Positions 10,776 through 17,957 of a stretch of 20,469 nt of DNA are shown here, piece by piece. Position 1 is the stretch's first letter. Each line of letters starts with the position of its first letter. The stretch lies in IMG/VR virus record IMGVR_UViG_3300046822_000107, positions 1 to 20,469 of that record. One strand, 5' to 3'. Under the pieces are notes generated by a model, which saw only the letters and a list, made by a program, of their open reading frames with translations, was not told the origin of the DNA and ran no database searches. The translations under genes were made by a program, and so were the position numbers. This stretch comes from a virus.

Positions 10776-13700
10776 GTGCCTACTCCTGACGACTACCCGC
10801 AGCTGCAACCGCTTCCGTTCACAGCGTCTCCGGAAACGACGGCGTTCGTGCGCCGGGCGATGGCGAATATGCCGCCCCCTCCGCAGCCTGTAGCACCTGT
10901 ACCACCAACGCGACCCAATAGTTTGTTGACCGACATCGGTCACGGCTTCGCTGGTGGTGCGATGGTGGATCTGCCCGAGATGATCGGGCATGCCGCACAA
11001 GCGTTCACGCCGGATGACAGCGCCGTTAATCGCCTCGGTGCGTCGATGGTCAAGTTCGGCAAGGAGCGTGAGGAGCTGCCTCAATATCAAACGACTGGTG
11101 CGTTTGGTGCAGGGGCGAGATTTGTCGTGCCTGCGTTGGGGGGATTGGCTGCGACAGCTGCTGCGGCTCCAGTCGTGGGGACCACTGCTGCAGGAGCGTT
11201 GAGCACCGCAGCGCTTGCTGCGCTCTTCGGTGGTTCGACTTATCAGGACATCAAGGAACGGGGGCTGGCCGCAGGAACCGATCCAGATGTCGTGCATGCG
11301 CAGGCCGTCAAGGGTGGCCTTGTGCAAGGTATTGGGCAAGGGCTTGCGCAGATGGTCGGCGGTCGCGTTTTGGCTGGAGCGGGTGGCGCACTGGTCAATA
11401 AAGTTATTGCGAAGGGCGGCGTGGACAACGCCATTCAGTCCTTCACCAATCCGGGTTTTTTGAAGCCGTTCGGTAAGACGATGCTTGAGATGGCTGGTGT
11501 GCAGCTGCCACTGCAGGCAGGCACGTCTGCCGCGATGAACGAGATTGAAGAGGGTGCAGGCATCAACACCGGACAGACGTCGTGGGAAGCCGCCAAGGCC
11601 AGTCTCGCACCCACTGCCGCGATGACGATGCTGCTCTCGCCAGTTGGCGCGTGGGGCGTTCGTGCCAGCAACAAAGTAAAGGCGCGAACTGCAGAACTGG
11701 TTTCCGGTACAGATCCAACGGCGACACAGGAACAACGCAAGGTTGCGCTTGCAGCGATGGCGAAAGAAATGCGCAAGACGGCGCCGCTGCAGGATGTTAC
11801 CGAGTGGCAGCAGCAAGCGGAGTTGGCGATTCTTGACGACAAGCCTGTCGGAATGAAGGCTGACTTCAAGTACACCCCCGATGCGGAGCCTACACCACCG
11901 CTCGCGCTGCCCGGGCCGCGGACTGCATTGCCCAGCGCGGTTCCGCTAGAACAGGCTGGTGGAACTGCAGAGCAAGCCGCCGATGAGAACGCGGCACGGA
12001 TTCAAGCTGCGCGCGATGCGGAAGAAGCACGACAGGCTGGATTGCGTACAGCGCCAGCAGAGGAAGTACCCCCGGGCGGTGAGCCGCCTGCTGAACCACC
12101 GGGTGGCGCTGGCCTCGGCGGCGTGTCACCGATGGAGGAGTCGGCCGCTGCGGCACGTGCGCGTACGCCAAAGGACAAAATCGCTGCGCAAATTGGCGCA
12201 CAGATAGCGCTGCAAGGTGAGCCCACTGCACGCGAGATCCCACCGCGGCAGACGCTACTCGAACGTGTGCCGCGTGCGCCTGAGTCGGCGCAGTTCATGG
12301 AGCTGCCGCAGGAAGCCACCAAGCAGGAACAGGTCAACGATCTGAAAAAGAATTTTCTGCCGACTGCACCGAAGGATTTGATCGCACGGTTGATTGGGCC
12401 GTTGGAGGAGATGCCGGCGAAGATCAAGCAGTTGTGGACGGAGAAGGGTGGCGAGACTTCGGATGCGACGTACGTCAAGCATCTCGGTGATCTGTACAAA
12501 CGGATCACGGGTGAAGAGATCAATGCGGAAGGAATGAAAGATGAAGGCGCCGCTCGTAACGAGCCCAGTGAAGTTGCCCCCGAAGAGCGTGCACGGACCG
12601 AACCCGAACCAGCCCCCGTTCAAGCTGAGCCCGAAGCTGCCCCCCGTCCTGTCGAAGTGGCTCAAGCGCAAGGGGATGCCGGAACCGGGGGCGAAGCTCG
12701 CGCAGCTGCGCAAGAACCTGCGCTGACGAAGGAAGCGAAAGCCAAAGTGACGAGAGCGGCAAAGGCCGCAAAGATCGCAGAAGCTGCGCAAGCTGAACAA
12801 GCGCGTGAGGAAACACGACACGAACCACCGACCGCAGCGGAAGGCGCGGCAGCGCTTGCGGAAGGTCAACCAGCGGACGAAGGGATTTTTCCCAGAGCAG
12901 GAGGTACCGATGCCGTTATTCCCGGGCAAGAAGAACGTGGGGGCGAACCTCAAGGCGGAACTGGCGGCGGGGAAGCCGCGGGGGCAGGCGCTGGCGATCG
13001 CACTGTCGGCGTCGCGGAGGGGGGCACCGAAGCCCAAGGCGGGGAGCAAAACGCACAAGTAAGGGAGCAGCGTCGTGCCGACAACCGGCGCTTTCGTGCG
13101 CACGGTGATTTGGCGGCATACGACGCCAAAACGCAGGCGTTGATTGCTGAGGCCAATGCACTGGAAAAGAGAGATCCCGAGTCTCCTGATCTGAGAAGGA
13201 AGCGACTGGAGATCGGCCGGCGCATGAACGAAGGGCGCAAGGAGCTGCATCGTCGAGCGATCGATGCTAATGCCGAGGCCGATCGCGTCAGAGACAAGTG
13301 GAAAGAACCGGGATGGGATGCAGGCAACGCCCTGTATGCGATGCCGAACGCACTGAACGAAAACAATCATGCCGACACGTTGTCGTTCCTTGCGGCACGT
13401 GAGCTGCTTGGTGAAAAGTTGAGCGATGAAGAAAAGGCATTGCTCAGTAACCGCGGTATAGAAAAGAAAGGCACCCGTGCCAAGGAAGAAGCAGACCTCG
13501 CCATGAAGTCGTTGTCTGCTGATCAGAAAGCGCGCTGGCAGGCGCGAGTGGAGCGGATGGCGGCGTCGGCCAAACTCATGGACGAGATGGCCACCATTCG
13601 GGATGAAATCGAAAAGAAAGACAAGAAGCGAGAGGGCAGGACGGCACGCAATGTTCAGCAGGAAGCGGACGATCGGCTGGACGACGAGCAAAAACTGCAA

Positions 13701-16700
13701 GCGATCGACGAGAGCGTTAAGGGCTGGGTGAAAGTCACCAGCGAGTTGGGTACGCACTGGGTGGTGGAAGGGCACGAAAAGCAAGTGCTCGATGCGATGG
13801 CTGCAGCTGCCAATCGTGATGCGATCCAGAGCCGCGGATTGTCAGGGATCTCCGATGCCGCGCTGGGTGCCAAAGTGGCTTTGACGCCGCACGCTGGCGC
13901 CATCATGGAACACCTCGCCAAGACGCACAACAATCCGTTGATGCGCGTCGTGGCCAAGATGCTCGCCAAAGCCAATCCGAACGCCGAGATCGTCGAGATT
14001 CCGGGTGCTGCGTTCAATGGCGGTCGCTATGTGCCATCGAGCCACAGGATTGAAATCGGTCGCGGTGGCATGAACCCGATTACGTTGATGCATGAGACGG
14101 TGCACTCGCTCGCGCATGCAGCGATCTATCGCGCCATGGACAATCTCACTCGACCGTTCGCTGAACTGCACCCGCAAGAGCGAAAGGAAATGGAAGGGCT
14201 GCAGGTTATTCGCAATGCGATGGATGCGTTCGCCAAGGTAGCCGACTACAGCCGTGAGGATCATCGGCTGGCGTTGGATAACGAGCACGAATTTCTGGCC
14301 GAAGCTCTGAATAACCCGCACATTCAGGAAGCATTGGGTGGCCGGTCCGGCTGGTATGGACGAGTCGTGAATTGGGTGCGCTCGTTGTTCGGCAAGGATG
14401 CGATCAACCAGACGGATTTCGAAAAGCTGATGGACGTTACACCGTCGCTGTTCGGTAGTCCGAATCGCAGCCTTACGGAAGTGTTCAACAGCAACCTTAA
14501 TCGGGCCGAGAAGATTCCCGGTTCGCCGCCGCAGTTGATTGGGGAGACGAAGGCCGCGTTCTCCAAGGCCGCTGAGCTGATGTCACAGGCCCGCAAATTG
14601 GTGCCCTCGGATCTGGATCTGAAGGCGCTTGCCTTGTGGCTTAAGGGCACGACGGTCAACAATAAGCAGCACATGCTGCGTAATTATCGCGAGCGGGTGG
14701 TTCGAGAATTCCCGAAAGTGGCGCCCCTATTCGACCGGGTGATTGCTGCGCATGACGCTATTCAACGGGTGACCCAGAGTCGCAATGCCGGTACGCAGCA
14801 TTTGATGAATGCACCGGGAGAAGGAAACGATCAGGTACGCGAAGCGGCCAAGTTCGCACACGAGAATAAACAGCAGGCACGGGAGATGTTCGAACTGCAA
14901 CGTCGTGAACGTGACGCGGGGGTATTTTCCGGCGACACATGGAAGCAGGCTGAGGCACGTGGCGTTACCCGAGACATGTTCAACAGTCCGCTCGCTGTCG
15001 AAAACCGGACCAAGATGGCAGCCATGCGTGCGCGCGATCTCGCGCGTTTCGAAAAGGAATTTGCTGCAGCCAAAAACCTGAACCCAGCGCTTACCAAAGA
15101 CACGTGGAATGGCCCGCTTACGGCAACTCGTGTGTACGACCACATGGCTACCTATCATGAGCTGACGCTGCAGCGCACCGCCATGGAGCAGTTGGCAGCG
15201 ATGCGCAAGACGTGGGGTCTGAACACTGACCCGAGTCTTTACTGGAAGGCGCATACCTACGGTAAAGACAACCGGGCGATTACCGATCCGCGTGTACAGC
15301 TGCAGAATGTGAAGGCTGCCATTGCGAGATCGCGCGCTGCGACGGCTGCCGCAATAGAAAAAGCGGGCTTTGATCCGAAGTCCAAGTTTGGTCAGGACGT
15401 CACTTCCTATCGTGAAGCGTCTGAGTCGATGCTCAATGAAGCCAATCGACAGGCCAACGTTCCGTATTCACCGCGTACACGCCCGGGTGAATTTTTCCTG
15501 CACGCCGAGATTGCCGATAAGCCCGGACTCTACGAGCGTGTGCGTTCGATTGTGCGCCCTGAGTTTGATCCCAAAAATCCCAATGCTGGCGGTCTTGGTC
15601 GTGACATGGGACCCGAGCTGAAGGGCGGCAGCCGCACGATTCGCATGCACTTCGACAATGAGGGGCAGCTGAAATATGCGGAGCAGCGGCTGCAAGCGTT
15701 GCGCGATGAGGGAGCGTTTCACACCAAGGCGAAGGAGGGTTCGCCGAGTGAGGACACGTTTGCTTCGGGCACGGTCATTGGTGATGCCAAACCCCATGAG
15801 GGTGCTACTGCGGGCTGGGTGCGCGCGTTCGAGAAACGTATTGACGACAACCCGGACTGGGAGGGCGACGTCAAACAGCAAATGAAGCAGGAGGTGCGGC
15901 AGGCGTACATCAACAGTTTGACCGAGATGAATCCGCTCAAGGCACTAAAACATGCCGACAAATCGGCTGGTGCCAGCACTGACATGGTGCGCGGATATTC
16001 CGATCGTTTGCAGCGTGGTACCACCCAGCTGTCGGCTATTCGTGCCGCATCGCTTATGGGCGATGCGATGAATCAGCTTAACGGCGCGATGAAAGAGATC
16101 CAGAAACAGCCAGCAGCATTCACCGAGCACAAAAATAAACTCGCGGTGTTTGAGGCGGAAGCTAAACGTCGGGTCCAAGACACGCGGATTGCGGTCAATA
16201 CGCCGTTTCGGGATGCCATCCGTGCGATTGCAGCGCCGTTCCGACTGGCGCTGTCACCTGCGTATTTGATGATGACGGCGTACCAACCATGGCAGATGAC
16301 GCTGCCGTGGCTCGGTGGCAAGCACGGCTACGTCACAAGCGCGGCAACCATGGCACGCAACTACGGTGTCTCGCACGCCATGATGAGCGCCATGATCAAG
16401 GACGCGTATGAAAACAGTTCCGGTACGAGCAAATTCCAGAAGCTCGTTGATGCCGCTAATCCCGCGGCGTACTTCAGCAACATCAAGCGAGCAGATGGCA
16501 CGTATTTGTTTGATGGAGCGAAGCTGGAAGCGGTCAACCGGCTTGCGGAGTCTGGTCTGACTGCATTCGGTCAGTACAACCAGATCTGGCGTCCGCAAAC
16601 GACTGAGGGATTCGAGGCGGCGAAAGGTGGGCTGCAGCAAGCTAACCGTCTCGCGTCGCTGCTTCCACACTACGTCGAGATGTCGAATCGCATCGTGGCG

Positions 16701-17957
16701 TACCTGTCTGCACACGAGCTGTATCTCACCAAGGGCATCAAGTACGCGGAGGGGGCTACCAAGGCAGAGCGGGCGAAAGCGCGCGACGACATGATGAACG
16801 CCGCGTCGGCGGAACAAAAACGGGCGGCAGAGGAATACGCACTCGGCATGATCCGTGATACGGACGGTGATCACTCGCAAGGCAATATCGCGCGCATGTT
16901 CGGACGGCACGGCTTTATTGGCGGATCGACGCCATTGGTTGTCGGCTTCGGTCAGTACGATCTGCAGATGGTCGAGTCGATGATCCGCAGCATGGTTACA
17001 GCAGCGGGTAGGGGTGACATCAAGAACACAGGAGCCAAGGTCGCTGCGAAGCAACTGGCCGGCGTCGTCGCGATGACATCACTCATGGCCGGTACGCTGG
17101 GCGCACCGTTCATGGGACTCATGACCGGCCTGTGGAATCGTCTCGGTTCGATGTTTCAGGATGATGCCGACACGCCACCAGACTTCGAGAAAAGCTGGCG
17201 TGACGCGATGGAAGGAATTTTTGGTGAGAAGGGTGGCGAGATTGTGTCGCGAGGTCTGCCACATCTGCTCGACTTCGACATGAGCCAACGTTCGGGCTAT
17301 CAGGATCTGGCGCCGTTCACCAACTTCCTCACCGATCGGCAGAAGATCGACGACACGATCAAGACGCAGGCGATGAATTTTCTCGGCCCAGCCGTGGGCG
17401 TGGGTGTGGGGGTCGCCACAGGTTCAGCTGCTGCCATTCGTGGCAACTGGCCGCAAGCCATTGACGATGCGTTGCCAGCGTTTGCTCGCAATCTTTTCAA
17501 GGCGGGGCGTTTGGCGGCGTATGGGTATGAGCGCAAGAGTGATGGCAATGCGCCGATTCCGTTGCATGTGTCGACATGGAACGTGGTCATGCAGGCGGGT
17601 GGTTTTGGTTCGGCAGCAAAAGAAGAAGAAGGAGAGATGCAGAATTATTGGAACGTCAACCAAGCCATCATGCAGCAGCGGATTGCCAAGATTCGCAACA
17701 AGTGGCTGGTTGCGCAGGATCACGGTGATGCTGCTGGTGTGGGCGATGCAATGGAAGATCTTGTTCACATCGCTGAGGTACAGCCGCAGTACGCAGGTGC
17801 TCCTAGCTCGGTCGGACCAGCGTACAAGGCGCGACAGCAGGCGGTCGCGCTGGGTCAAATGACTGGTGGTGTAGGAGTGCACAAACGTGCCTTGCCGTTC
17901 TTTATGCAGTTTCAGGGCGCCAATCACTACCCTGAGCTGGCAGCACCGAACTACTGA
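10776..17957 (+). CDS. Giant internal/ejection protein with zinc-metallopeptidase motif
   Basis: This 2393-residue protein is probably packed in the head and delivered with the DNA. Start is GTG 10776 with a CAAGGT SD. Residues 1-50 are Pro-rich. Hydrophobic Ala/Gly-rich stretches lie near 107-153, 179-214 and 277-304. Low-complexity linkers occupy about 360-480 and 585-780. The zincin motif is HETVH (1106-1110), and Glu1172 or Glu1176 in EHEFLAEAL is the likely third zinc ligand, as in peptidase domains of large polyvalent phage proteins. RTRPGEFFL near 1568-1576 and RGYSDRLQRG near 1739-1748 recall later parts of such proteins. Near 1824-1865 and 2090-2125 are membrane-active-looking segments, followed by a block containing SRGLPHLLDFDMSQRSG. 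I saw no RNA-polymerase motif. The peptidase may act on host or virion proteins; its target is unknown. Two short frames are nested in the 585-780 linker. Confidence 0.8.
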   Translation: MPTPDDYPQLQPLPFTASPETTAFVRRAMANMPPPPQPVAPVPPTRPNSLLTDIGHGFAGGAMVDLPEMIGHAAQAFTPDDSAVNRLGASMVKFGKEREELPQYQTTGAFGAGARFVVPALGGLAATAAAAPVVGTTAAGALSTAALAALFGGSTYQDIKERGLAAGTDPDVVHAQAVKGGLVQGIGQGLAQMVGGRVLAGAGGALVNKVIAKGGVDNAIQSFTNPGFLKPFGKTMLEMAGVQLPLQAGTSAAMNEIEEGAGINTGQTSWEAAKASLAPTAAMTMLLSPVGAWGVRASNKVKARTAELVSGTDPTATQEQRKVALAAMAKEMRKTAPLQDVTEWQQQAELAILDDKPVGMKADFKYTPDAEPTPPLALPGPRTALPSAVPLEQAGGTAEQAADENAARIQAARDAEEARQAGLRTAPAEEVPPGGEPPAEPPGGAGLGGVSPMEESAAAARARTPKDKIAAQIGAQIALQGEPTAREIPPRQTLLERVPRAPESAQFMELPQEATKQEQVNDLKKNFLPTAPKDLIARLIGPLEEMPAKIKQLWTEKGGETSDATYVKHLGDLYKRITGEEINAEGMKDEGAARNEPSEVAPEERARTEPEPAPVQAEPEAAPRPVEVAQAQGDAGTGGEARAAAQEPALTKEAKAKVTRAAKAAKIAEAAQAEQAREETRHEPPTAAEGAAALAEGQPADEGIFPRAGGTDAVIPGQEERGGEPQGGTGGGEAAGAGAGDRTVGVAEGGTEAQGGEQNAQVREQRRADNRRFRAHGDLAAYDAKTQALIAEANALEKRDPESPDLRRKRLEIGRRMNEGRKELHRRAIDANAEADRVRDKWKEPGWDAGNALYAMPNALNENNHADTLSFLAARELLGEKLSDEEKALLSNRGIEKKGTRAKEEADLAMKSLSADQKARWQARVERMAASAKLMDEMATIRDEIEKKDKKREGRTARNVQQEADDRLDDEQKLQAIDESVKGWVKVTSELGTHWVVEGHEKQVLDAMAAAANRDAIQSRGLSGISDAALGAKVALTPHAGAIMEHLAKTHNNPLMRVVAKMLAKANPNAEIVEIPGAAFNGGRYVPSSHRIEIGRGGMNPITLMHETVHSLAHAAIYRAMDNLTRPFAELHPQERKEMEGLQVIRNAMDAFAKVADYSREDHRLALDNEHEFLAEALNNPHIQEALGGRSGWYGRVVNWVRSLFGKDAINQTDFEKLMDVTPSLFGSPNRSLTEVFNSNLNRAEKIPGSPPQLIGETKAAFSKAAELMSQARKLVPSDLDLKALALWLKGTTVNNKQHMLRNYRERVVREFPKVAPLFDRVIAAHDAIQRVTQSRNAGTQHLMNAPGEGNDQVREAAKFAHENKQQAREMFELQRRERDAGVFSGDTWKQAEARGVTRDMFNSPLAVENRTKMAAMRARDLARFEKEFAAAKNLNPALTKDTWNGPLTATRVYDHMATYHELTLQRTAMEQLAAMRKTWGLNTDPSLYWKAHTYGKDNRAITDPRVQLQNVKAAIARSRAATAAAIEKAGFDPKSKFGQDVTSYREASESMLNEANRQANVPYSPRTRPGEFFLHAEIADKPGLYERVRSIVRPEFDPKNPNAGGLGRDMGPELKGGSRTIRMHFDNEGQLKYAEQRLQALRDEGAFHTKAKEGSPSEDTFASGTVIGDAKPHEGATAGWVRAFEKRIDDNPDWEGDVKQQMKQEVRQAYINSLTEMNPLKALKHADKSAGASTDMVRGYSDRLQRGTTQLSAIRAASLMGDAMNQLNGAMKEIQKQPAAFTEHKNKLAVFEAEAKRRVQDTRIAVNTPFRDAIRAIAAPFRLALSPAYLMMTAYQPWQMTLPWLGGKHGYVTSAATMARNYGVSHAMMSAMIKDAYENSSGTSKFQKLVDAANPAAYFSNIKRADGTYLFDGAKLEAVNRLAESGLTAFGQYNQIWRPQTTEGFEAAKGGLQQANRLASLLPHYVEMSNRIVAYLSAHELYLTKGIKYAEGATKAERAKARDDMMNAASAEQKRAAEEYALGMIRDTDGDHSQGNIARMFGRHGFIGGSTPLVVGFGQYDLQMVESMIRSMVTAAGRGDIKNTGAKVAAKQLAGVVAMTSLMAGTLGAPFMGLMTGLWNRLGSMFQDDADTPPDFEKSWRDAMEGIFGEKGGEIVSRGLPHLLDFDMSQRSGYQDLAPFTNFLTDRQKIDDTIKTQAMNFLGPAVGVGVGVATGSAAAIRGNWPQAIDDALPAFARNLFKAGRLAAYGYERKSDGNAPIPLHVSTWNVVMQAGGFGSAAKEEEGEMQNYWNVNQAIMQQRIAKIRNKWLVAQDHGDAAGVGDAMEDLVHIAEVQPQYAGAPSSVGPAYKARQQAVALGQMTGGVGVHKRALPFFMQFQGANHYPELAAPNY
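12541..12726 (+). CDS. Nested alternative-frame ORF (61 aa), speculative
   Basis: This frame lies wholly inside the giant gene, shifted one base relative to it, opposite giant residues 589-651. The ATG at 12541 is preceded by GGAAGGA (12527-12533) at a 7-base spacing, a credible SD. The product is Pro/Lys-rich, strongly basic and without Cys: MKAPLVTSPVKLPPK at the start and K-W-L-K-R-K-G-M-P-E-P-G-A-K-L-A-Q-L-R-K-N-L-R at the end. Of 61 codons, 57 end in G or C, against 28 of 61 in the giant frame. However, this is partly forced, because the nested third position is the giant frame's first position, and Ala, Gly, Glu, Pro and Gln codons all begin with G or C. I recognise no family. It is listed because it shares register and neighbourhood with the better-supported nested gene downstream. 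Confidence 0.33.
   Translation: MKAPLVTSPVKLPPKSVHGPNPNQPPFKLSPKLPPVLSKWLKRKGMPEPGAKLAQLRKNLR
12899..12905 (+). promoter_or_regulatory. Perfect Shine-Dalgarno AGGAGGT inside the giant gene
   Basis: AGGAGGT is followed by four bases and then ATG 12910; from the last G of AGGAGG the spacing is five bases. It is the strongest ribosome-binding site I found in the window and serves no start in the giant gene's own frame. It sets the start of the nested gene and argues against the longer form that would begin at GTG 12805. Confidence 0.75.
12910..13062 (+). CDS. Nested gene: small basic phage protein with Q-A-x-A-I-A-L motif
   Basis: A complete 50-residue gene lies inside the giant gene in another frame, opposite giant residues 712-762. 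A perfect SD precedes its ATG. The product begins MPLFPGKKNVGANLKAEL and continues AAGKPRGQALAIALSASRRG, ending in a Lys-rich tail. From memory, this matches a class of short basic proteins in phage genomes with the pattern M-P-x-x-x-G-K-x-x...N-I-K-x-E-x-x-A-G-K-P-x-K-Q-A-I-A-I-A-L-x-x-A-R, close to what I know as DUF6496-like. Function is unknown; the charge suggests nucleic-acid or capsid-surface contact. In the giant frame the same DNA encodes only a Gly/Ala/Glu linker. SD, normal length and a family-like motif together make chance unlikely. Codon bias is not independent evidence because of the host frame's composition. Confidence 0.7.
   Translation: MPLFPGKKNVGANLKAELAAGKPRGQALAIALSASRRGAPKPKAGSKTHK

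Follow-up and report, generated by a model that had tools for sequence, protein, structure and literature searches.

The window, which is the whole stretch of 20,469 nucleotides analyzed here, carries the terminase, portal, coat and adaptor genes of an HMO-2011-like podovirus. A giant gene on the plus strand (10776..17957) encodes a 2393-aa polyvalent protein, whose PLxRFG domain (15792..17849, aa 1673-2358) matches NCBIfam NF032893 with an E-value of 1.9e-54 and a score of 185 bits, above the cut-off of 100 bits. At 14091..14105 (plus strand, giant aa 1106-1110) the same protein contains HETVH, an HExxH motif of the zincin-like metallopeptidase type, identified as a motif only and with no Pfam domain match. 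The giant is thus of the polyvalent kind described by Iyer et al. 2017 (PMC5512222; PLxRFG and LPD38 families), and many proteins of that kind are packaged and injected. The label of ejection protein given to the giant in the preliminary description is plausible. Within the giant gene, and on the same strand, two small genes are nested, both in the +1 frame relative to it: gene A at 12541..12726 and gene B at 12910..13062. When the window is compared with the 96%-identical contig L001, hypervariable stretches of the giant linker are seen at window positions 12009-12336 and 12744-12860, the second of which includes an indel of ~258 nt and lies between the end of gene A and the Shine-Dalgarno (SD) sequence of gene B. 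The closest cultured relative is Pseudomonas phage Rollin, with homologous capsid and portal proteins and a 2184-aa giant.

Gene B was the only nested gene in the preliminary description, and its layout stood up to reexamination. The SD sequence AGGAGGT at 12899..12905 (plus strand) is followed, five bases after its AGGAGG, by the ATG at 12910, and the frame runs for 50 codons to a TAA at 13060-13062. The product, MPLFPGKKNVGANLKAELAAGKPRGQALAIALSASRRGAPKPKAGSKTHK, is a basic protein with a pI of 11.8, and the giant frame at this place is, as had been claimed, an Ala/Glu/Gly-rich linker. The SD-ATG spacing pattern AGGAGGTNNNNATG occurs once in the window versus 0.01 expected from shuffling. 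However, when the codons of the giant gene were shuffled synonymously, 3.5% of 1000 shuffles contained an AGGAGG, an ATG and an ORF of at least 45 codons, so that the SD and ORF of gene B are by themselves only moderately improbable by chance. The case for this gene thus rests on homology and conservation.

The preliminary description placed the product among short basic phage proteins that are widespread and share a KQAxAIAL core, and a profile search against phage protein sets bore this out. In PHROGs, which was built independently of the present analysis, gene B matches phrog_2423 over practically its full length (E 4.2e-10, residues 1-46 on profile positions 1-48 of 52). The match begins at residue 1 of both, which supports ATG 12910 as the start. 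Eight positions of the family core (M1, P2, L3, N13, G21, A29, I30 and A31) are invariant over 38 members including the window protein, so the MPL start, the N, the G and the AIA are all present in gene B. Against a family profile that includes gene B itself, the real protein scored 62 bits, versus 16 bits for the best of 19,460 shuffled alternative-frame ORFs. This profile match is the decisive point for gene B being real, and the ORF at 12910-13062 is almost certainly a gene. The suggested relation to DUF6496 (PF20106) did not hold: the window protein has no Pfam match at E<=1, and the best DUF6496 score, 16.3 bits for one stand-alone homolog, is below the gathering score of 24 bits. No match to the small nested proteins was found in NCBIfam.

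The AlphaFold2 model of gene B is a helical hairpin (residues 7-19 and 24-38) with a core pLDDT of about 92. A fold search of the PDB gave no match at E<1, and a structure search of BFVD returned mainly uncharacterized phage proteins of the same kind, with weak E-values. In the profile search of solved structures, TALE repeats were the only hits; they were rejected as a repeat artifact, since they are built from many sub-threshold repeats worth a few bits each.

Gene A, missed in the preliminary description, was found by listing all alternative-frame ORFs in giant linkers. It encodes a 61-aa Pro/Lys-rich basic protein of a family with the motif GPNPxQPP (GPNPNQPP in the window), and a Shine-Dalgarno-like AAGGA lies at 12529..12533 on the plus strand, 7 bases before its ATG. 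This SD is modest, and stronger ones precede the homologs in L031 (AGGAGGT) and L156 (GGGAGGT). The gene lies within the giant, always in this +1 phase, in ~8 lineages (window/L001, G001, G005, G010, L155, L156, L157 and L031), with weaker homologs in G014 and G021; the BLAST E-values to the window copy are 7e-21 for L137 and 4e-15 for L141. Genes A and B follow each other in tandem, in this order, in the window, L155 and G001. When 394 alternative-frame ORFs were compared all against all, A pairs and B pairs made up nearly all of the top matches, and the remaining ones fall mainly in regions over which the giant protein is conserved in its own right. Searches of cultured phages, of the contigs of the genome collection and of the remainder of the records covered revealed no stand-alone gene A. 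The AlphaFold2 model of its product shows, with low confidence, an extended Pro-rich arm and two short helices.

Both nested frames are conserved as proteins across distant phages, which were compared as metagenomic contigs. In L001, the close relative that keeps the giant gene, the SD, ATG and frame of gene B are all retained, together with 49 of its 50 residues. At a much greater distance, with giants that share only ~30-36% identity with that of the window, L039/G001 and L155 carry gene B in the same +1 phase of the equivalent linker, in L155 with the SD AGGAGG. The start and stop codons are intact in every nested copy compared. In codon alignments, the residue identity for gene A is 48% in the nested frame, 25% in the giant frame and 27% in the third frame, and the corresponding values for gene B are 53%, 31% and 33%. 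When the frames were aligned separately, the nested one scored highest in all 21 A pairs and in 9 of 10 B pairs. The nested frame is thus the constrained one, with independent purifying selection detected over seven A and five B copies, and the giant frame in the overlaps behaves as a merely open frame. Between the window and L001, gene A shows no nucleotide change and gene B one, versus 40 changes and the indel in the 60 codons between them; this contrast is only suggestive, since the two giants hardly differ in other regions either. The closeness and mosaic nature of this pair also preclude a formal synonymous-site test.

Nesting of gene B is a minority arrangement and not obligatory, since several relatives have a giant with no B inside it (G005, G008, G012, G015-G017 and Rollin, the last also lacking nested A). 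In G012 and G015 a B gene is found downstream of the giant. As the gene is nested, downstream or absent among related phages, its nesting can be regarded as optional.

The preliminary description presented a hidden gene inside a single giant gene; the nesting is real and is seen again in further phages, also within giants unrelated to this one. Among 173 distinct phrog_2423-like hits in the loci compared, seven are nested in a long ORF on the same strand (window, G001, L155, L289, L186, L221 and L247), all seven in the +1 phase; as the hits were fetched by similarity to nested copies, this proportion is no estimate of frequency. The giant of L289 is a remote relative of the window giant, that of L221 is an LPD38 polyvalent protein, and those of L186, L221 and L247 show no BLAST similarity to that of the window. 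Each nested B is preceded by a purine-rich SD-like sequence, for instance AGGAGG in L186, AAGGAG in L247 and CGGAG in L221 and L289, and the homologs in L155, L186, L221, L289 and L247 match phrog_2423 with E-values from 1e-14 to 1e-21. Two further cases, L217 and L240, appeared nested only by stop-to-stop reading and were left out of the count.

Other small ORFs were observed in the linkers of relatives' giants. SD-preceded basic ORFs in the +1 phase are found, in coordinates of the reverse complement, at 3896-4024 in L138, 3176-3304 in L142 and 3833-3997 in L139. Their products begin with MASKPNPF, MALPAKFL and MPYVSQKQ, respectively, and the first two are alike at E 9e-5; these ORFs possibly represent further nested gene families. 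The small basic ORFs in G006/G011 and G007 appear similar in kind to the nested genes, with weak support, and the one in G007 has no database match.

The relatives of gene B outside giant genes are numerous. A tblastn search with the nested homologs found B-like genes in >500 records of cultured phages, among them SP6 (gene 48) and phages of the Pbunavirus, Bcep781-like, Klebsiella and Acinetobacter groups. The stand-alone relatives mostly lie in head gene clusters, adjoining coat, portal, terminase or prohead protease genes. An exception is SP6 gene 48, which adjoins tail genes, and thus a head role may not be general. In Pseudomonas phage SCUT-S1, gp22 is a full-length phrog_2423 member (E 1e-28, 7.4 kDa), and it is listed as ORF22 in the published virion mass-spectrometry table at 7.46 kDa with 7 peptides and 77% coverage (PMC6521218, Table 1). 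The head maturation protease of Acinetobacter phage TT23 (L243, 2501-3826) has a phrog_2423 domain as its N-terminal part. PHROGs lists the family as of unknown function, and neither SP6 nor PB1 is mentioned in the CRISPRi-ART paper. Given the location in head clusters, the virion peptides of SCUT-S1 and the fusion in TT23, the best-supported inference is that gene B encodes a small virion or head-assembly protein. In records of cultured or deposited phages, homologs of the family were also observed at OR532847.1 7325-7444, OR532883.1 7375-7494, NC_020847.1 23517-23633 and MW202674.1 11306-11425, at sites where either no gene is annotated or only a barely overlapping neighbor is.

The preference for the +1 phase can be related to codon composition. 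In stand-alone B-family genes with a GC content of at least 55%, the phase equivalent to that of the giant is open in 9 of 24 cases, versus 1 of 24 for the other phase. Lys and Arg codons read one base off become Glu, Gly, Ala and Gln codons, and the giant frame across gene B accordingly has 0% Lys, 31% Gly and 14% Glu, with a pI of about 4. As the partner frame of a Lys/Arg-rich gene is often open and acidic, such a gene can lodge in a linker harmlessly.

Genes A and B both lie wholly within the giant gene, in its +1 phase, at a place where the giant frame reads as a disordered linker rich in Ala, Glu, Gly and Pro. Taking the sequence comparisons together, we consider it very likely that both are translated internally, with B being virion- or head-assembly-like. 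Ribosomes would start on the late mRNA at each internal SD independently, and the giant would thus be produced alongside both small basic proteins. Gene B would then have the role of its stand-alone relatives, in the virion or in head assembly, and the putative product of gene A probably works together with B or the giant. Moreover, gene B would not have arisen by overprinting in the giant, but would belong to an old stand-alone gene family that later lodged in the linker. Such lodging would work because in GC-rich DNA the partner frame of Lys/Arg-rich genes of this type frequently lacks stops and encodes a flexible, acidic linker.

The nested ORFs might instead be decaying or untranslated gene copies that the giant absorbed and kept only as linker, as the giant ORF reads through them and many relatives have no nested B. 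We regard this as improbable, since conservation is seen in the frame of the nested proteins and not in the giant frame, starts and stops have stayed intact, and G001 and G002, as records of 66-69 kb, have no other B copy. Somewhat less credible still is the idea that the giant ORF is not one protein, but separate upstream and downstream genes with the small genes between them in an accidentally open region. The linker is indeed of low complexity and poorly conserved, and the small genes lie between two conserved blocks; however, the same frame runs uninterrupted for roughly 2000-2600 codons in >15 relatives, whether these have nested genes or not, and the members of such PHROG families are single proteins 2000-4600 aa long. 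That the +1 frame is open merely through GC-rich codon bias, with a coincidental or compositional likeness to short basic phage proteins, would fit the large number of long +1 frames in GC-rich linkers and the codon-shuffle rate given above, but this reading, the least probable, is already contradicted by the profile results (E 4e-10 for phrog_2423, and the gap to the best shuffled score) and by the conservation of the nested frame, not the giant one, in distant phages that keep nested homologs with an SD in the same phase.

We give even weight for and against to a broader proposal: the disordered linkers of giant polyvalent genes could be a general, phase-locked lodging site for pre-existing small virion genes, in which Lys/Arg-rich inner genes in the +1 phase create an acidic, stop-free outer frame, with the small gene as the constrained partner and the linker sequence as a by-product. 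If true, this would turn around the usual view of overprinting, which takes the inner gene to be the newcomer. The arrangement provides a concrete and testable model for embedding an existing gene without conflict, as the outer frame need only remain open and flexible, and it explains part of the hypervariable "linker" of giants as a coding constraint from another frame. Since gene callers normally suppress small genes in long ORFs, a class of virion genes may lack annotation; this possible gap concerns phages with giant internal proteins, in whose linkers small virion genes seem to be concealed. In addition, phrog_2423 can be flagged as a family of which one member has been detected in phage particles.

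The host gene resembles the polyvalent proteins described previously (PMC5512222) in being giant and multidomain, with an HExxH motif and a place among virion genes. The difference lies in the nested genes, as the text of that study mentions neither overlap nor linker; in the part of the literature covered, no report of nested genes in giant phage genes was found. With the known phrog_2423 members, such as SP6 gene 48, the gp22-type proteins of Pbunavirus and Bcep781 gp02, gene B shares the family over its full length, the size, the basic charge, the MPL start, the KQAxAIAL core and a predicted helical hairpin. Those members are, however, stand-alone, or protease-fused in TT23, whereas gene B is contained entirely in a giant gene and read in a different frame. 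Phages are known to carry nested genes, such as Rz1 in Rz and E in D of phiX174. As in these cases, a whole small gene is contained in a larger one, in another frame and with its own start and SD. Unlike in these cases, B as the inner gene comes from a family that is old and known independently, the outer portion is linker of variable sequence, and the same layout is found again in giants that resemble each other little or not at all.
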